NCBI GenBank assembly: GCA_017959225.1
Contig: JAGDBD010000088.1
Coordinates: 1 to 41,273 of the forward strand
DNA length: 41,273 nucleotides
Source of the DNA: Fibrobacter sp.
GTDB lineage: Bacteria > Fibrobacterota > Fibrobacteria > Fibrobacterales > Fibrobacteraceae
Direction: 5' to 3'
In this document: one piece after another, positions 13,655 through 40,462 of the stretch
Layout of the letters: each line of letters starts with the position of its first letter
How positions within the stretch are numbered: position 1 is the stretch's first letter
Translations under genes and position numbers: made by a program
Notes under the pieces: model-generated
The model's database searches: none
Told to the model about the DNA's origin: nothing
What the model saw: the letters and a program-made list of their open reading frames with translations, nothing else

Positions 13655-14767
13655 ATGAAAACACGTTTCGTTTTATTGATCGCTATTCTCTTTGGCTGCT
13701 TTTGGATGGTAGCTTGCTCTTCGGACTCCGCGGCAAATGGAATGCCCGGTAAAATGCCTGGCAAAAACGGTGCGCCTCCGGGAGCCGCAATGAATCGGAC
13801 GTTGCGTGTTACCGGCTATATCGCAGTTCCGGATTCGACCACGGGAACTTATACGGCAGACGGCGAACTCCTTGCCGATGCACAGGTCGATTTGAAAACG
13901 GAAACCTCCGGAAAGTTGGTGAAGCTCTACGCAAAAGATGGCCAGAAGGTTTCCAAGGGAACTCTCCTTGCAAAGCTCGATGACGGGGAACTCCAAGCGA
14001 ATTTGAAAAGCGCTGTGACGACTCTTGAACTTGCCGAGAAAAAAGCGGCAAGAACCAAAACCCTCTTTGAAAAGGACGGTGCGACAGCCGAAGAACTGGA
14101 ATCTGCCGAAAGCAGCGTGGAATCGGCAAAGGCTTCCAAAGAACTGATTGAAGCCCAGTTGAAAAAGGTGGAAGTTCGCGCACCGTTTTCTGGAACTTTG
14201 GGTGTTGTCGAAGTTTCGGAAGGCGCTTGGATGAATTCCGGATCGCAGATTGCAACCCTTACCAATACAAGTGAATTGAAAGTGGAATTTGAACTTCCGC
14301 AGCGCTTCTCCCGCAGTGTGAAAGTGGGCGACAAGGTCCTTCTGATCGATACAGAACAGGAAGTTCGTGCTGAAGCTAAAATTTCCTTTATGGATGCAAC
14401 GCTTTCGAATTCGAGCCGTACCCGCAAAGCCCGTGCCGTTGTGAATAATAAAAATGGTAAGTATTTGCCGGGTACTTATGTGCGAGTCCAGCTGGACTTT
14501 GGACAGGGAAATAATGTGGGCATGCCGATTCCTTCGGAAGCGGTGACTCTCGATGAAAAAGGCGCCTATATCTTTGTGGCTAAAGAAGGAAAGGCGAACA
14601 AAGTTTATATCAAGACCGGTTTAAGAACGCCGATCACGGTAGATGTCTTGGACGGACTTTCCACAGGCGATACAGTCATTGTTTCTGGCCTTATGAACAT
14701 ACGTGATGGAATGGGCGTCGAAATCAAGGAATTGGCAAATAACATGAGCTACGGGGTGAATGAATGA
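13655..14767 (+). CDS. RND efflux periplasmic adaptor lipoprotein
   Basis: A 370-residue membrane-fusion protein that bridges an RND pump and its outer-membrane channel. A lipobox (MVACSS, Cys21) shows inner-membrane lipid anchoring as in AcrA/MexA. A Gly/Pro/Met-rich linker follows, then the lipoyl half-motif LLADAQVDLKTETSGKLVKL, and a coiled-coil hairpin roughly residues 115-175 with heptads rich in Ala, Glu and Lys. The second lipoyl half is VRAPFSGTLGVVEVSEG, followed by beta-barrel and membrane-proximal domains. ATG at 13655 was chosen because it opens the signal peptide; an earlier in-frame ATG at 13598 would hide it. Its stop overlaps the pump start (ATGA). Confidence 0.92.
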   Translation: MKTRFVLLIAILFGCFWMVACSSDSAANGMPGKMPGKNGAPPGAAMNRTLRVTGYIAVPDSTTGTYTADGELLADAQVDLKTETSGKLVKLYAKDGQKVSKGTLLAKLDDGELQANLKSAVTTLELAEKKAARTKTLFEKDGATAEELESAESSVESAKASKELIEAQLKKVEVRAPFSGTLGVVEVSEGAWMNSGSQIATLTNTSELKVEFELPQRFSRSVKVGDKVLLIDTEQEVRAEAKISFMDATLSNSSRTRKARAVVNNKNGKYLPGTYVRVQLDFGQGNNVGMPIPSEAVTLDEKGAYIFVAKEGKANKVYIKTGLRTPITVDVLDGLSTGDTVIVSGLMNIRDGMGVEIKELANNMSYGVNE

Positions 14768-17700
14768 GTTTTTCGACACTTTCTATTCGACGCCCTGTGC
14801 TTGTCACAGTGCTTTCTTTGGGCATTGTGTTGATAGGCGCATTTGGCGCATCAAACCTAGGCATTCGTGAATACCCGAACGTTGACTCGCCGATTATTAC
14901 GGTGCGTACGACTTATACGGGTGCAAACGCAGCGGTGGTTGAAACCGAAGTGACCGAAATCATTGAAGCTTCGGTGAACAGTGCTTCGGGTATTAAATCC
15001 CTGACTTCCACAAGCTCTGACGGTAGTTCCACGATCCGTGCGGAGTTTGAAGTGGGAACGGATTTGGAAGCGGCTGCAAACGATATTCGTGACCGCGTTT
15101 CCCGTGTGGAAGGAAAACTTCCCGATGGCGCCGATGCTCCTGTGGTTTACAAGTCCGATTCGGATTCCGATCCGATTTTGATTGCGAGCCTTCTTTCGGA
15201 TACCCGTGATGCTATGGAACTTTCGGAACTTGCGACGAACGTGGTGAAGGAACGTTTGCAGACGATTTCGGGCGTTTCGGAAGTGAATCTTTGGGGTTCT
15301 AAAACGCCAGTGCTTCGCGTTTGGCTCGATCCGTTGCGTATGAAGGCTTTGGGCGTCACCGCTTCGGATGTTTCGGCAGCTCTTGCTGTAGAAAACGAAG
15401 AACTGCCTTCGGGTAAAATCGAAGGCCAGGCGATGGACCTTTCCATTCGTACCCTTGGACGTTTGGAAAACCCTGCGGATTTCAATGCGATCCCGGTTAA
15501 AACGGCTGCAGACGGCTCCATTGTAAAGCTTTCGGACGTGGCAACAATCCATTACGAACCGAAAGATACGCGTACCGGTTTTAAGCGTAACGGTAAAAAC
15601 GTGATTGCTCTCGCTGTGATTGCTCAGCCGGGTTCTAACCACGTGTCCATTGCGGATGAATTTTATAAGCGAGTGGAAGACCTCCGTCGTGACTTGCCTT
15701 CCGATATCCAGATTCTGAGCGGTCTCGATAAATCGGTGAATATTCGTTCGTCTATTCGCGAAGTGATTGAAACGATCTTCTTTTCGTTCCTGCTCGTGAT
15801 TGTTGTGATTTTCCTCTTCTTGCGAGAAGTGCGCACGACTTTGATACCGATGGTTGTTATTCCGGTTTCGATTGTGGGAAGCTTTTTTGTGCTTTACATT
15901 TTCGGGTTCTCTATCAACGTGCTGACGCTACTTGCCATGGTGCTTGCGATCGGCCTTGTGGTGGACGATGCCATTGTGATTGTGGAAAATATTTACCAGA
16001 AAATTGAACGCAATATGACGCCGAAAGCGGCTGCGGTTGCGGGCATTCAGGAAATCTTTTTTGCGGTCATTGCGACGTCCGTGGTGCTTATGGCCGTGTT
16101 TGTGCCGATGCTTGCCCTTGGCGGAACGACGGGCCTTTTGTTCCGTGAATTCGTGGCGGTGATGATCGGTACAGTCGTGATTTCGACATTCTGCGCATTG
16201 ACTCTTACTCCGATGCTTTGTTCGAAGATTTTACGCGCTCAGAAGAAAGGCGCTTTGTACAATGCGACCGAACCTTTCTTTGATTGGCTGAACGAAATCT
16301 ATAACAAGCTGTTGAACGCCTTCCTTCGTGTTCGCGGATTGATCTTTGTGATCATTGGCGCTTTGCTGGTGGCCGCGTACTACTGCTTTACGAGCCTTTC
16401 CAGTGAAATGGCTCCGCAGGAAGATAGTAACGTGTTCATGGTGAACATTTCTGCTCCGGAAGGAACGGGTCTTGGCCAGACGAAAAAGATGACCGAAGCC
16501 TTTGTGGAAGAAATGACCGCTTTGATGGATTCGACGGAATATGAAGAAGTTCAGGCCGGTGCGCGTTCTGGCGGAAGCTCCATGATCCGTGTAATGTTGA
16601 ATAGCGACAAATCCAAGCGTCGCTCCCAGAGCGAAATCGCTCGACAGGTGCAGGTTTTGGGCGCAAGCTACCCCGATTTGCGCGTGATGGTCTTTGAACC
16701 GCAAAGTATTAGTACGACTATGGGCGGTTTGCCTGTGCAGTTTGTGTTGCAGGCGAGCGACATCGAAGTTTTGAGAACGCTTTTGCCGAAGTTCACCGCC
16801 GAAGCGGAAAAGAGTGGCGTCTTTAGCGTGGTCAATGCGGACTTGAAATTCACAAAACCGGAGCTTCACGTGGAAATCAACCGTGAAAAGGCTCATGACC
16901 AGGGCGTTTCCGTGGATGACATTGCAACGACGATCGCACTCACCATGGGTGACCAGACTTACGGTGAATATTACAAGGACGGTCGCCAGTACGATATTAT
17001 TGGAGCAGTGCCGTATCAGTACCGCTTCTCGCCGACGAATTTGGACGAGTTGAGCGTTCGCAACGGCTCGGGTGAAATGGTTTCCGTTTCGAACTTTATC
17101 ACCTATACGGAAAAGTCCGCTTCGCCTTCGCTTCCGCGTTATAACCGCTTTAGTTCTGCGACGGTTTCTGCAGGCCTTATGCCCGGAAAAACTGTGGGTG
17201 ACGGTGTTGCGGAAATGCGCCGAATCGCTAAAGAAATCATTCCGGATTCTTTGAACATCCAAACGGAACTTACCGGAACGTCAAAGGAATTCGAAGAAAG
17301 CTCTTCGGGTCTTTATATCGTGTTCTTGCTGGCTCTGGCTTGCATCTTCCTTGTGCTGGCTGGACAGTTCGAAAGTTACCGTTCTCCGTTTGTGACCTTC
17401 TTTACGGTGCCGCTTGCACTTGCGGGTGCGGTGATTGCGCTCTACTTCTTTGGTCAGACGCTGAACATCTTTAGTGAAATCGCTTTGATCCTTTTGCTTG
17501 GCCTTGTGACAAAGAACGGTATTTTGATCGTGGAATTTGCAAACCAGATTGCGGAACGTACAGGTTGCTCTAGACTCGCCGCTGCAAAGAAGGCTGCCCG
17601 TTTGCGCTTCCGTCCGATTCTAATGACGAGCCTTTCGACGGTTCTTGGCGCTGTGCCGCTGATTTTGACGGGAACGCCTAGCCGTATCGCTATGGGTATT

Positions 17701-19170
17701 ACGATTGTGTGCGGCCTGTCGTTTGCAACGCTTTTGACGCTCTTCGTTGTGCCTGCTGCGTATTCCTTCTTTGCCGGAAAACCGAACAAGAATGTTCGTA
17801 TCGACCCGGAAGCAAATGCCGATCCGAATACCGGAACGAAAATTGCGTCCCTTGTTTTGACTGCTGTTTTGGCCGGAGCGCTGTTTGTTCCGCAAACGGT
17901 GGAAGCCGCCGTGCTTACGCCAGAAGAAGCGGTGCGGACCGCTATGGAAAAGAATACTTCAGCTTTGATGTACGAAGAAAATGTGAAGAGTGCCGAAGCG
18001 AACGTGAAAAGCGCTCGTAAAGGGCTCTTGCCGACGGTGGACCTTTCGCTTTCACGTTATTACACCTATGGCGATGATTATTCTAAAACCCAGGCGGGTG
18101 TCAAAACGGATATCGATGACGATTTGGGACATAGCGATGCGTTCCAGATTGCTGTGAACTACTCCGTTTTTGACGGCTTCAGCGACATTTCTTCGTATAA
18201 GGCGAGCAAGGCGCAAGTGGAAAGCTCCAAGGCCACGCTCCGTGCCGAACGGGAATCTTTGGCTGCTAACGTGCTGACCGCTTATTTCAACGCGGTGAAT
18301 GCAAAGTCTTCGCTGGTACTTTCGGATTCGAACCTTTCGGTTTCGAGAGAACGCCGTGAACTGGCGAGGAACAAGTATGAAGCAGGAGCGATGACGCGGC
18401 TGGATTACCTTTCTGCGCATATGGATTTTTCTAGCGACAGCGCATCGAACCTTTCGCTGGCATCGAACCTTTCGACAGCCATTCGAAACTTGGACGAACT
18501 CTTGGGCGGTGGCGTTATCCAGAGCGGAGACGATCTTCCGGATTCCATCGATGTGGACAGAGATCCTTTTTGGATGTCTGCCGAAGGGCTTGCGCAGGCG
18601 AAGTCCAGAGCATTGGACAATAACGCTGAACTTGCCGCTGCAAAGGCGCAGATGAATTATGCCCAGGTGAACCGCAAAGGATCCAATTCCGGACTTTATC
18701 CGAAGCTCAATTTGCACGGATCCTGGAACGCTTCCGCTAGCGAATCGGACAAGTCGAACCCTGCCGAATCGAACAGCCAATATTTTAAGGTTGGCGCGGC
18801 TTTAACGTGGAACCTCTTTAACGGTTTTGCGGACAATGCTACAGCGGAATCGGCAAAGATTGCGGAACGTTCTGCGGAATTGAAGGTGGAAAATGTGCGC
18901 TTGAACGTGGAAACGAACGTGGCAAATGCCGTGGACACCCATTTGCGTGCACTGGAATCCTTGGAAGTCGCAGAAGGGAATGCAAATCTCGCTTCCGAAA
19001 TGTTGAAACTTGGTGAAGAACGCTTAAAAGCGGGAAATATCACGAACTTTGAATTCCGTGAAACTCAAAGCCAGTGGCGAACGACCCGTGAAGCTCTGCT
19101 TTCTGCCCGGGTTTCTGCTCGGAATGCGGAAATCCAGGTGAAGCTTTTGACGGGCGACATTTTGAAATAG
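14764..19170 (+). CDS. RND permease fused to TolC-type outer-membrane factor
   Basis: One uninterrupted 1468-codon gene. Residues 1 to about 1010 are a complete HAE1-type RND proton antiporter: RRPVLVTVL start, two large periplasmic loops, Asp401-Asp402 in TM4 (GLVVDDAIVIVEN) and Lys917 in TM10 (TKNGILIVEFA), the proton-relay residues. After TM12 comes a polar linker (about 1010-1025). Residues about 1026-1049 then read like a signal peptide with an EAA end (IASLVLTAVLAGALF, then VEAA). Residues 1050-1468 are an outer-membrane efflux protein with two repeats (LTPEEAVRTAMEKN; later LDYLSAHMDF and GNITNFEFRETQ). No internal ATG suits a separate TolC gene at the joint. Similar fusions are known among CzcA/CusA-type pumps of Bacteroidota; here the pump is of the drug type. 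Start coupled to the adaptor gene. Confidence 0.9.
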   Translation: MSFSTLSIRRPVLVTVLSLGIVLIGAFGASNLGIREYPNVDSPIITVRTTYTGANAAVVETEVTEIIEASVNSASGIKSLTSTSSDGSSTIRAEFEVGTDLEAAANDIRDRVSRVEGKLPDGADAPVVYKSDSDSDPILIASLLSDTRDAMELSELATNVVKERLQTISGVSEVNLWGSKTPVLRVWLDPLRMKALGVTASDVSAALAVENEELPSGKIEGQAMDLSIRTLGRLENPADFNAIPVKTAADGSIVKLSDVATIHYEPKDTRTGFKRNGKNVIALAVIAQPGSNHVSIADEFYKRVEDLRRDLPSDIQILSGLDKSVNIRSSIREVIETIFFSFLLVIVVIFLFLREVRTTLIPMVVIPVSIVGSFFVLYIFGFSINVLTLLAMVLAIGLVVDDAIVIVENIYQKIERNMTPKAAAVAGIQEIFFAVIATSVVLMAVFVPMLALGGTTGLLFREFVAVMIGTVVISTFCALTLTPMLCSKILRAQKKGALYNATEPFFDWLNEIYNKLLNAFLRVRGLIFVIIGALLVAAYYCFTSLSSEMAPQEDSNVFMVNISAPEGTGLGQTKKMTEAFVEEMTALMDSTEYEEVQAGARSGGSSMIRVMLNSDKSKRRSQSEIARQVQVLGASYPDLRVMVFEPQSISTTMGGLPVQFVLQASDIEVLRTLLPKFTAEAEKSGVFSVVNADLKFTKPELHVEINREKAHDQGVSVDDIATTIALTMGDQTYGEYYKDGRQYDIIGAVPYQYRFSPTNLDELSVRNGSGEMVSVSNFITYTEKSASPSLPRYNRFSSATVSAGLMPGKTVGDGVAEMRRIAKEIIPDSLNIQTELTGTSKEFEESSSGLYIVFLLALACIFLVLAGQFESYRSPFVTFFTVPLALAGAVIALYFFGQTLNIFSEIALILLLGLVTKNGILIVEFANQIAERTGCSRLAAAKKAARLRFRPILMTSLSTVLGAVPLILTGTPSRIAMGITIVCGLSFATLLTLFVVPAAYSFFAGKPNKNVRIDPEANADPNTGTKIASLVLTAVLAGALFVPQTVEAAVLTPEEAVRTAMEKNTSALMYEENVKSAEANVKSARKGLLPTVDLSLSRYYTYGDDYSKTQAGVKTDIDDDLGHSDAFQIAVNYSVFDGFSDISSYKASKAQVESSKATLRAERESLAANVLTAYFNAVNAKSSLVLSDSNLSVSRERRELARNKYEAGAMTRLDYLSAHMDFSSDSASNLSLASNLSTAIRNLDELLGGGVIQSGDDLPDSIDVDRDPFWMSAEGLAQAKSRALDNNAELAAAKAQMNYAQVNRKGSNSGLYPKLNLHGSWNASASESDKSNPAESNSQYFKVGAALTWNLFNGFADNATAESAKIAERSAELKVENVRLNVETNVANAVDTHLRALESLEVAEGNANLASEMLKLGEERLKAGNITNFEFRETQSQWRTTREALLSARVSARNAEIQVKLLTGDILK

Positions 19171-20325: not shown

Positions 20326-22182
20326 TTAATCTTCGTCTTCTTCCACCGGAGACTTGGATTCCTGCTTGCGCTTGTGCGGATCGAGAGTGATCTTGCGGAG
20401 GCGGAGGGCCTGCGGGGTCACTTCGACGCATTCGTCGTCGTTGATGAACGTGACGCATTCTTCGAGAGTCATGCGGCGGTACGGCGTAAGCTGAATGTTG
20501 TCGTCGGAAGCTTTGGAACGCATGTTCGTCAGGTGCTTACCCTTGGTGGCGTTCACAATGATGTCGGTGGTACGGTTGTGTTCACCGATGATCATGCCCG
20601 GGTAAACTTCCGTTGCTGGCGGAATAAAGAGAGCACCGCGATCTTCGAGCTTTGCAAGAGCGTAGCTTGCTGCGGCACCCGGTTCCTTTGCGATGAGAAC
20701 ACCGTTTGTACGGGCCGGAATGTCGCCCTTGTACGGTTCGAAACCGAGGAAGAGAGACTGGGAAATGGCGTAACCCTTGGAAAGAGAAAGAAGCTTTGCA
20801 CGGACACCGAGAAGGCCGCGGCTCGGAATCTTGTATTCGAGATTCACGCGGTTGTTTTCATCGGTCTGCATATCGACCATTTCGCCCTTGCGACGGCCAA
20901 GTTCTTCGATGATCGGGCCGCTGTATTCTGACGGGACTTCCACCTTGAAGGTTTCCATCGGTTCAAGAAGCTTGCCGTTTTCGTCTTTCTGGAAAATCAC
21001 CTGCGGAGATCCGATGGTGAATTCATAAAGCTCGCGACGCATGTTTTCCACGAGAATCGTCAAATGGAGAATGCCGCGGCCAGAAACTTTGAACGTAGAT
21101 GCACCGTCGGCCTTTTCGACGAGAAGTGCCGGGTCGGCCATGTGAGCGCGTTCCAGACGTTCCGCGAGGTTGTTACCCGTGAGGAACTTTCCACCGTCCT
21201 TGCCGGCGAGCGGGGAAGTGTTCACCGTGAAGAGCATGGAAATGGTCGGCGGGTCGATGTGAATACGCGGAAGGCTTACCGGTTTGTCTGCTGCAGAAAG
21301 GGTGTCGCCGATGTCGAAAGTTTCAAGACCTGCGATCTGGATGATTTCTCCCGGACCCGCTTCGTCGATAGGAGAAGACTGGATGCCGTCGTAGTGGAGA
21401 ATTTTTTGGATGCGGATGTTCTTGACCTTCGGGGTGTCGGAATCGTTGTCCGTCATGAAGCTCTGGGCAACGGTCATGCCGGTTTTGAATGTACCCTGTT
21501 GGACGCGGCCCACAGCCATACGTCCGAGGAAGCTCGAATATTCAAAGGTGCTGATCTGGAGAAGCGGTGCTGCTGCCGGATCGCCCTTCGGAGCCGGAAT
21601 CTTGTCGATGACGAGGTCCATCAAAATGCGAAGATCGCCATCCGGGTCGTCGATTTCCTTGCGGCAGATGCCCTTACGGCCGCTGGCGTATACGCAAGAG
21701 AAGTCGAGCTGGGATTCGTTAGCGTCGAGTTCGCAGAACAGGTCGAAGACCTTGTCTAATGCATTGTGCGGATTGCAGCCGTCGCGGTCGATTTTGTTGA
21801 TGACGACGATGGGGGTAAGGCCGAGCTGAAGAGCTTTTTGCGTAACAAAACGCGTCTGGGCCATAGGACCTTCGAATGCGTCTACCACGAGAAGCACGCC
21901 GTCCACAGTTCCGAGAACGCGTTCCACCTCGCCGCCAAAGTCCGCGTGCCCCGGTGTATCGACGATGTTGATGTGGTACCCTTTATAGTTCACACTGGCG
22001 TTCTTCGAAAGAATGGTAATACCACGTTCGCGTTCGATCGCTCCAGAGTCCATCACGCGTTCGTTCACTTCTTCGCCTTCGTGGAACGTGCCGCATTGTT
22101 TAAGAATCTGGTCCACGAGCGTCGTTTTGCCGTGGTCAACGTGTGCGATAATCGCAATGTTTCTGATTTTATTCTGATCCAT
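20326..22182 (-). CDS. typA: Ribosome-associated translational GTPase TypA/BipA
   Basis: A 618-residue translation-factor GTPase. It binds the ribosome like EF-G and helps assembly of the 50S subunit, especially under cold and other stress. G1 is AHVDHGKTT (13-21), followed by the switch I region [15 protein letters not shown] (G3) and NKIDRDG (G4). The central [17 protein letters not shown] block and the C-terminal TPQALRLRK segment are TypA signatures. The tail is acidic (VEEDED). ATG at 22182 is preceded by AGGA; an in-frame ATG 16 codons upstream is less likely, since homologues begin at the GTPase domain. It is divergent from ruvX and convergent with the secreted protein gene. Confidence 0.96.
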
Positions 22183-22243
22183 TTTGGATATCCTATTTTG
22201 GGTACTGCCGGTACTCTTAATTTGGCGCAAAATTTAGAAAAAT

Positions 22244-22281
22244 TTCAAGTGCTTGGCGATTGTTTTTATATTTGGGGCGTG
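22244..22281 (+). promoter_or_regulatory. ruvX promoter with -10 box abutting GTG
   Basis: TATATT (22267-22272) is followed after six bases by GTG at 22279. TTCAAG (22244-22249) lies 17 bases upstream as a plausible -35 box. No Shine-Dalgarno is present, so a leaderless transcript starting at or near GTG is likely. Confidence 0.5.
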
Positions 22282-22689
22282 AATTATTTAGGGATTGATT
22301 ACGGAGAACATCGCGTCGGGATTGCTTTTGCGGATTCCGAAATGAAGTGGGCTTTTGCCCGTGAAACCATCGATCAAAAAAAGACCGATTTGATGACGCG
22401 CCTGGCTGAACTTGTCAAATTGAACAAAATTGACATTTTTGTAGTGGGTATGCCCTATCGTCCTGACGGAAGAAAGGACGGTAAAAATGTTGTGGTTGAA
22501 GAATTCGTGAAAAGCTTGGCGGAACGTTTTCCGTAGATTCCCATTAAAACGGAAGATGAAGCTTATACTTCCGTTGCCGCGTTGCAAGAGACGAGTTATT
22601 TAAAAAAGAAAAAGAAGCAGCAGGATAAAGGGCTTGTGGATCGCCTCGCTGCACAGCACATTTTACAGTCATATTTGGATAATCATTGA
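22279..22689 (+). pseudogene. ruvX: RuvX/YqgF with a single in-frame amber codon
   Basis: Read through one TAG (22534-22536, codon 86), this frame encodes a 136-codon RuvX, the expected full length for this RNase H-fold protein of rRNA processing and Holliday junction resolution. GIDYG near residue 5 gives the first catalytic Asp, VGMPYRPDGR is a hallmark, and after the TAG come TEDEAYTS (matching the DERLTS block with its acidic residue) and GLVDRLAAQHILQSYL (last catalytic Asp). Thus all three acids exist but two lie beyond the stop. Translation ending at TAG would give 85 residues without an active site. The change looks like one base from AAG, CAG or GAG. It may be a real lesion, readthrough or a sequence error. 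Confidence 0.85.
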
Positions 22690-22699
22690 TTGGTTCGCC

Positions 22700-22735
22700 T
22701 GTCATTGCGAACAGAGTGAAGCAATCGCAATGACA
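22700..22735 (-). repeat. Short interspersed palindromic repeat, copy 2
   Basis: TGTCATTGCGA (22700-22710) and TCGCAATGACA (22725-22735) are perfect 11-bp inverted arms around a 14-base loop, ACAGAGTGAAGCAA. The loop is the reverse complement of the copy 1 loop with two differences, so this copy is inverted relative to 8993-9026. It sits between ruvX and the amtB terminator. Confidence 0.75.
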
Positions 22736-22801: not shown

Positions 22802-24079
22802 TCAGGTGTTACTGAAAATTTGGAATCCACCGTAAGATTCTTGTGCGTGTTCGCTCAAGTCGAGACCGCGGAGTTCTTCCTTTTCGCTCACGCGGAGACC
22901 CATTGTCTTCTTGATGGCGAGGAAGATGACGCTAGCGGCGATGAAGCACGGGATCGCGTAGGCGACAATGCCGATTGCTTGAGTGAGAACTCCAAAGCGT
23001 CCGGTGTAATCAAAGAGACCCACAGCGAGAGTTCCCCAGATACCGTTCACCAGGTGAACCGAGAGAGCGCCCACCGGATCGTCCAAACGGAGCTTTTCGA
23101 AGAAGAACACCGCAAGAACTACCAGCACGCCGGCGATTGCGCCGATGATCCAGGAGCTGAGCGGCGAAACCGTATCAGCACCAGCGGTAATCGCAACAAG
23201 GCCTGCAAGGCATCCGTTCAAAGCCATGGTGGCATCCGGCTTCTTCGAAATGATCCAGGAGGTAGCCGTTGCAGTTACGATACCAGCGACAGCTGCGAGG
23301 TTTGTCGTCACAAGGATCAGCGAAACATCGAAGGGGTTACCGCTGAGAGCAGATCCGCCGTTGAATCCCCACCAACCGAACCAGAGCATGAATACGCCCA
23401 CCGTTGCAAGGGGAATGTTGTGGGCCGGAATCGCATGGGACTTGCCGTTCACATACTTGCCAAGACGCGGTCCAAGGATGATGACGCCAGCGAGAGCTGC
23501 CCAACCGCCAACGGAGTGCACCAGTGCAGAACCGGCGAGGTCGTGGAACACATGGCCGAAATGCGATGCGAGGAAGCCGTCATCGGCACCGAGCCAGCCG
23601 CCGCCCCATGTCCAGGAACCGACGATCGGATAGACGAAGGCCACGTAGACGAGCGTGAACACAAGGAAAGAGCTCAGCTTAATGCGTTCAGCGACTGCAC
23701 CCGAGACGATAGTTGCAGCAGTAGCAGCGAACATAGCCTGGAAAAGGAAGTCGGCGAACAGCGTAAAGTGGCCGTTGTATTCCGGCGAGAACGCTGCGGG
23801 GTTGTTGAACCATTCACCGATGCCGAATCCTCCAAAACCGAGGATTCCGTTAAAGGTTCCCGGATACATGAGACCGAACCCGAGAAGTCCGTAGACGGTG
23901 ACGCCGATGGCTGGGACCGCGATATTCTTGAAGCAGATGTTTGCACTGCTTTTAGCACGGCAGAGACCGGATTCCACGCAGGCAAAGCCAAGGCCCATAA
24001 TGAACACGAGCATTGCGCTGATTAAAATCCAAAGGTTTTCGCTTACAAAAAGAGCGTAATCGGGAGTGACTGTTTCCAT
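22802..24079 (-). CDS. amtB: Ammonium transporter AmtB
   Basis: A 425-residue inner-membrane ammonium channel of the Amt/Rh family with about eleven membrane segments. Conserved features are GLGFACVESGLCRAKSSANICFKN in the first third, DLAGSALVHSVGGWAAL with the first pore histidine, GWWGFNGGSAL, and LSVHLVNGIWGTLAVGLF with the second pore histidine. The C-terminal tail is short but has the usual acidic and Gly-containing segment, needed for PII contact. A strong AAGGAG precedes the ATG. It lies 12 bases after glnK and shares its sigma-54 promoter, the standard nitrogen-scavenging unit. Confidence 0.96.
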   Translation of the reverse strand: METVTPDYALFVSENLWILISAMLVFIMGLGFACVESGLCRAKSSANICFKNIAVPAIGVTVYGLLGFGLMYPGTFNGILGFGGFGIGEWFNNPAAFSPEYNGHFTLFADFLFQAMFAATAATIVSGAVAERIKLSSFLVFTLVYVAFVYPIVGSWTWGGGWLGADDGFLASHFGHVFHDLAGSALVHSVGGWAALAGVIILGPRLGKYVNGKSHAIPAHNIPLATVGVFMLWFGWWGFNGGSALSGNPFDVSLILVTTNLAAVAGIVTATATSWIISKKPDATMALNGCLAGLVAITAGADTVSPLSSWIIGAIAGVLVVLAVFFFEKLRLDDPVGALSVHLVNGIWGTLAVGLFDYTGRFGVLTQAIGIVAYAIPCFIAASVIFLAIKKTMGLRVSEKEELRGLDLSEHAQESYGGFQIFSNT

Positions 24080-38081: not shown

Positions 38082-38115
38082 TTTTGTATAAGCTTTTTAT
38101 GGAAGCTCGGTGGGA

Positions 38116-40377
38116 TTACTTGTTTCCCGAACGGATCTTGTTCAGAGCGCTACCTGCTTTGAACCATTCCCACTGCTGTTGGTTGTAGGTCTGACTCAGT
38201 TCGGCGGAGTCTTCGGTTCCGTCTGCGTGGTGAATGACCAGGGTGAAGTGGCAGCCCGGGGTGAAGTTTGTAAGCCCGTTGATATCGAAGTAGTCGCCTT
38301 CGCGGACCTTTTCGTAATCGGCCGGGTTTGTGAACGTCAGAGCGAGCATTCCCTGCTTTTTCAAGTTGGTTTCGTGGATACGGGCGAAGCTGCGGACGAT
38401 CACGGCTTTGACTCCGAGATAGCGCGGTTCCATGGCTGCGTGTTCGCGGCTAGAACCTTCGCCGTAGTTTTCGTCGCCGACGACGATAGAACCGATTCCA
38501 GCATCACGGTACTTGCGAGCAAGTGCCGGAACTTCGTAGAACTGTCCATCGTTTCCTTTCACTTGGTTCGTCTGGCCGTTGAAAGCGTTGACTGCTCCAA
38601 TCAGCATGTTGTTCGAAATATTTTCCAAGTGGCCGCGGAACTTGAGCCACGGACCGGCCATCGAAATATGGTCGGTGGTGCACTTGCCCTTGGCTTTGAT
38701 CAGGAGCGGAGCACCGGAAATGTTCTTGCCGTCCCAGGCTTTGAACGGAGAAAGCAACTGCAAGCGTTTGGAATCCGGACTGACAGAAATCTGGATGTTC
38801 GAACCGTCTTCAGCCGGAGCCACATAGCCCGGATCTTCGACAGCAAAACCGTTTGCCGGAAGTTCGTCCTTTTTGGGCGGAACAAGCTTCACCTGTTCGC
38901 CCTTGTCGTTGACGAGAAAATCCTTTTCCGGATTGAAGAGAAGGGAGCCGGAAAGGGCTGCTACAACGGCCATCAAAGGGCTAGCGACAAATGCGTGCGT
39001 GTTCGGGTTGCCGTCTGCACGCTTGGCAAAGTTGCGGTTGAAACTGTGAACAATGGAATTCTTTTCTTTCTTTTCTGCACCGAGACGTGCCCACATGCCG
39101 ATGCACGGACCGCAGGCGTTCGTCATGATGGTTGCACCGAACTGCTTGAAAAGGTCGATGAAACCGTCGCGTTCGGCGGTGTAACGGACCTGTTCGGAAC
39201 CCGGGTTGATAATCAACGGAGCCTTCGGCGAAAGGCCCTTTTCCAAAGCCTGCTTAATGAGGGAAGCCACTTGGGAAAGGTCTTCATAACTCGAGTTCGT
39301 GCAGCTGCCGATAAGGGCTGCGCTTACAACGTGCGTCGAATCGAATTCCTTAAGGGATTCCTGCATTTCGTCGATGGGGAATCCGCGATCCGGGCTGAAC
39401 GGACCGTTGTAATACGGCTTCAGCGTGGAAAGGTCGATTTCAATGACCTTGTCAAAGTACTTTTCCGGTTCGGCTTCGACTTCCGGGTCTGCACGGAGAT
39501 AGTCAGCGATCTTGTTCGCTTCGTCTGCGACGGCTTCACGGCCCGTTGCGCGGAGGTAACGTTCCATGGTGGCGTCGTAGCTGAACGTGCTGCAAGTGGC
39601 ACCGACTTCGGCACCCATGTTAGCAATGCTTGCTTTGCCTGTAGCAGAAAGTTCGCGAGCGCCTTCGCCAAAGTATTCGCAAATGGCGTTGGTTCCGCCC
39701 TTCACCGTGAGCAGTCGAGCGACTTTCAAAATGACATCCTTCGGACTTGCAAAACCGGTGAGCTTACCCTTCAAATGAATGCCGATGAGCTTCGGGTATT
39801 TAAGTTCCCACGGAAGTCCGACCATAGCGTCCACAGCGTCTGCACCGCCCACACCGATGGCGAGCATACCGAGACCGCCTGCGTTCACCGTATGGGAGTC
39901 CGTTCCGATCATCATGCCGCCCGGGAAGGCGTAGTTTTCAAGGACGACCTGGTGAATGATGCCTGCACCCGGTTTCCAGAAATCGATGCCGTATTTGGCT
40001 GCGACAGAACTGAGGAATCCGTAAACTTCTTTGTTTTCGTCGAGGGCTTTCGGAAGGTCTTCTTCCTTACCGTTTCGAGCTGTAATCAAATGGTCGCAGT
40101 GAACGGAAGACGGAAGGGCCACCTTGGACTTGCCTGCGGTGGTGAACTGGAGCAAGGCCATCTGAGCCGTTGCATCCTGCATGGCAACACGGTCCGGGTG
40201 GAATTCCGCAAAGGACTTGCCACGTTCATAGACCTGGTTTTCTGCACCATCGATCAGGTGAGAATAAAGGATTTTTTCTGCCAGGGTCAACGGGCGACCG
40301 AGCAGCTTACGCGCTTTGTCCACACGTTCTGGGATGCGTGCGTAACGTTCCTTGATCATGTCCAAGTTAAAAAGCAT
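38116..40377 (-). CDS. Aconitate hydratase, mitochondrial-like type
   Basis: A 753-residue [4Fe-4S] aconitase, turning citrate into isocitrate in the TCA cycle. Cluster ligands are Cys359 (GSCTNSS) and Cys422/Cys425 (ACGPCIGM). TDSH at 159-162 and the C-terminal swivel-domain block [19 protein letters not shown] are conserved. Length, order of motifs and the MERYL start of the central section fit the mitochondrial ACO2-like group rather than the longer AcnA (about 890) or AcnB. GAGG precedes the ATG. It stands alone between the patatin gene and ruvB. A long opposite-strand frame is only a coding shadow. Confidence 0.93.
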
Positions 40378-40462
40378 AAAAGTACCTCATAGACGTTGGG
40401 GAACAATTTAGTAAATCAACGCTGAATTTTAGCGCTTGTAAGCGATTTAGAAAGGGATTTGA

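Follow-up and report, generated by a model that had tools for sequence, protein, structure and literature searches.

Does the in-frame amber codon in ruvX (yqgF) of this Fibrobacter sp. draft genome reflect readthrough, a recent loss of the gene, or a wrong base in the assembly? The window, that is, the whole stretch of 41,273 nucleotides that was analysed, is contig 79 of a draft of 130 contigs and 2.43 Mb with a completeness of 91.5%. The locus contains the following features.

20329..22182, - strand: typA (bipA), the divergent upstream neighbour of ruvX, intact
22279..22689, + strand: ruvX (yqgF), GTG start, TGA stop, 136 codons, interrupted once; TIGR00250 match of 72.9 bits against a cut-off of 43.25
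22534..22536, + strand: in-frame TAG, codon 86 of ruvX; GAG, GAG, GAA, CAG and AAC in the congeners
22537..22686, + strand: distal 50 codons of ruvX, still constrained, containing D93/E94 and D121
22802..24079, - strand: amt ammonium transporter, the downstream neighbour of ruvX, intact

The ruvX frame runs from GTG at 22279 through 85 sense codons to the TAG at 22534-22536, and continues through 50 sense codons to TGA at 22687-22689. Read through with the stop as X, it gives a full-length PF03652 match of 113.5 bits (cut-off 29.2). Moreover, the two halves lie in the same frame and each exceeds this cut-off alone, with Pfam RuvX scores of 64.8 bits for codons 1-85 (profile 1-85) and 40.2 bits for codons 87-136 (profile 87-134). 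Judged from these matches, chance is not a credible reason for a dead frame to have remained open and retained its RuvX homology. Compared with the RuvX/YqgF family (PF03652, TIGR00250; solved relatives 1vhx, 7ess and 1nu0), the gene is a whole-profile match with the conserved acidic residues and the expected length, and it differs by one in-frame TAG at codon 86, which leaves the frame interrupted in this assembly. The profile search returned this single RuvX match in the genome; the second ruvX copy that the original prediction had proposed to look for was not found. Its lengths (85 codons, TAG, 50 codons), its acidic block (TEDEAYTS) and its DRLAAQHIL motif were all confirmed on re-reading.

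To place the TAG among relatives, ruvX was compared with five congeners, six genomes of the genus with this one. Codon 86 is a sense codon in all five congeners (GAG in two, GAA, CAG and AAC), and the TAG is one base from the GAG of the nearest congeners. The comparison with close strains suggested earlier thus shows the stop to be private to this genome. In the family, ruvX was found in 58 of 61 genomes, with an internal stop here and in 0 of the 57 others. Conservation of the stop among orthologues, as programmed readthrough would predict, is therefore absent from both the congeners (0/5) and the rest of the family (0/57). At the level of the phylum, 156 of 167 genomes gave a match, and no other in-frame stop was seen among the roughly 150 matches listed.

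The distal 50 codons are still constrained. The conserved acidic residues of the RNase H-like fold are present (the N-terminal D, the DE block and the C-terminal D), and D7, D93/E94 and D121 align with acidic residues of the solved 1vhx and 7ess. Both D93/E94 and D121 are encoded 3' of the TAG. Against the three nearest congeners, the 50 codons 3' of the TAG carry 17 private synonymous and 0 private non-synonymous changes, and the 85 codons 5' of it carry 20 and 0. By a rough site-count estimate, about 62 non-synonymous changes would be expected had constraint been lost over the whole branch, and the unconstrained share of the branch is below about 5%. The 17:0 ratio 3' of the TAG means that the stop is very young, is not real or is read through, in support of the earlier argument against an old pseudogene.

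The draft was also scanned with dicodon statistics for stops with coding sequence on both sides, over 1.27 Mb (about half of the genome, sampled in stretches). Besides the ruvX TAG, it picked up one lone TGA and one lone TAA, both confirmed with relatives.

L110:5250, contig 74 (L140), - strand: lone TGA in purU (formyltetrahydrofolate deformylase), at a conserved Gly, with no stop in five congeners
L095:1239, contig 1 (L143), - strand: lone TAA in an acyl-CoA dehydrogenase gene, at a Tyr position, TAC in G004 and G005

The three genes are otherwise pristine and hold exactly one stop each. The scan, which is not exhaustive, brought up no recognisable case of this sort in a smaller sample from two congeners (0.47 Mb). 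The mixture of stops argues for sporadic base-level events and against anything specific to TAG. All three stop codons are represented. Two of the changes are G.C to T.A and the third is compatible with this type, which is what oxidative damage to DNA or to libraries produces. An oxidative origin can be envisaged for the three stops, which are too few cases to prove it. Across the genus (six genomes), no match to Fpg/MutM was found. Other candidates from the scan were set aside: the TAG at L191:8026 is on the strand opposite a tilS-like gene, in a frame that contains other stops in its relatives; at L203:6011 and at several TAA candidates, one gene appears to end and a new one to begin. Separately, the acyl-CoA dehydrogenase of G005 has an in-frame insertion of about 30 residues two codons past the TAA position.

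Within the window, all clearly conserved coding-strand genes except ruvX align to a congener without an internal stop, and the apparent stops in other rows fall in antisense or upstream-extended frames. A long open antisense frame at 20374-22536 (+), opposite typA, runs into the ruvX frame, and this makes the open frame at that place appear to exceed ruvX in length. Another, at 38110-40392 (+), lies opposite an aconitase-like gene (760 codons). Directly past ruvX is a short, REP-like inverted repeat (TGTCATTGCGA...TCGCAATGACA, 22692-22735), and a similar CATTGCG element lies 3' of ruvX in one congener. Farther upstream, a 1468-codon ORF at 14764-19170 (+) looks like a fusion of an RND efflux permease with a TolC-like outer-membrane part; it is full length (1461-1468 codons) in five of five congeners.

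Based on these observations, the TAG is most likely either an error or a very young nonsense mutation, an ordinary event that was accurately seen. Of the four options first proposed, sequencing error and recent nonsense mutation are favoured, and suppression and programmed readthrough are disfavoured. This pattern resembles isolated nonsense errors or mutations in draft assemblies, which likewise place one stop in each of a few pristine genes, use all three stop codons and are absent from relatives; no difference from such cases was found. Between error and mutation, we infer error: the lone point nonsense in the draft consensus is probably a base-level assembly error, with ruvX intact in the living organism. 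No readthrough would then take place, and RuvX would be made full length, as in every relative. Several points favour consensus error: RuvX/YqgF is essential in a number of bacteria, near-universal in the phylum and present here as a single copy, and each of three otherwise perfect genes holds exactly one stop. Counting against it, the ratio of private non-synonymous to synonymous changes across the window is 99:546, comparable with the congeners' values (50:334, 26:136 and 32:195), which indicates no gross excess of errors; this absence of excess private amino-acid changes relative to three congeners comes from a test to which an error rate of about 1 in 10,000 is invisible.

A possible but less probable explanation is that the nonsense mutation is genuine and very recent, and that the sampled strain carries it fixed or at high frequency. 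In that case, the product would end at residue 85, and the strain would live without RuvX or compensate for it. A single substitution from the GAG of two congeners suffices, and the bound of less than 5% of the branch is compatible with a young mutation. Similarly, the stops in purU and the acyl-CoA dehydrogenase gene could be young pseudogenes. Truncation at residue 85 would probably be null for RuvX function because it removes D93/E94 and D121, the aligned counterparts of acidic residues in solved YqgF structures; an 85-residue product without E94 and D121 is thus predicted to be probably inactive. RuvX/YqgF is reported to be essential in E. coli, M. tuberculosis, Salmonella and D. radiodurans (PMC9601230) and in B. 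fragilis (PMC4072883), which makes a true null less likely, whereas yqgF can be deleted in some bacteria and is dispensable in H. pylori and A. baylyi (PMC9601230). The retention of ruvX across the phylum, without a stop among the other matches listed, also weighs against a null. Furthermore, three pristine genes with one stop each and no other decay would require a coincidence of youth, and the MutY-like gene is intact, hence a broken MutY is rejected and no mutator was found.

Strain-level amber suppression, in which a suppressor tRNA encoded outside the assembled sequence or ordinary leakiness of UAG would yield enough full-length RuvX, is unlikely. Its basis in known systems (suppressor tRNA, pyrrolysine type, TAG-reassigned codes) is the shared arrangement of an in-frame TAG followed by conserved coding sequence, and codon 86 tolerates E, Q and N. 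In contrast to those systems, no CUA tRNA was found here, RF1 is intact, TAG is a normal terminator and the other stop codons behave alike. The search for a suppressor tRNA that the original prediction had called for found no CUA anticodon among 40 tRNAs; this set is incomplete, with Trp (CCA), Phe (GAA) and Ile tRNAs all absent from it, and could therefore have missed a suppressor as well. The RF1 gene prfA is intact (498 bits, no stop), and RF1 is present and intact in six of six genomes of the genus. As stated earlier, TAG is an ordinary stop in this genome: among 768 long ORFs in the 1.27 Mb, TAA terminates 464, TGA 199 and TAG 105. TAG is thus not avoided as a terminator, nor is it enriched in frame, the lone in-frame stops being one TAG, one TGA and one TAA; no second convincing in-frame TAG was detected in the 1.27 Mb. 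A pattern scan of viral contigs found nothing. Since amber suppression leaves the lone TGA in purU and the lone TAA in the acyl-CoA dehydrogenase gene unexplained, amber readthrough, whether suppressor-dependent or programmed, is disfavoured, and with RF1 intact, systematic TAG readthrough is rejected. Very improbable, too, is the narrower case in which the TAG is real and fixed in this important single-copy gene and full-length RuvX is made through a suppressor tRNA in the unassembled part of the genome.

Programmed UAG readthrough regulating RuvX is the least probable of all. A private hairpin about 12 nt 3' of the TAG, in which ACGGAAG pairs with CUUCCGU, has no counterpart in the nearest congeners and is the window's best fold. 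However, its stability is unremarkable (z -1.6; 14 of 200 shuffles fold equally well), no Rfam family matches and no relative has the stop. The ordinary energy and the lack of an Rfam match led to the rejection of the hairpin as a recoding element. Collectively, readthrough of the ruvX TAG is unlikely, and the stop is not evidence of recoding.

At present, the ruvX TAG is mainly a quality flag: an annotation of this draft would record no fewer than three conserved genes as truncated. Intact copies of these three genes exist in all or several of the relatives. Three such genes in one draft make claims of gene loss based on it unsafe.
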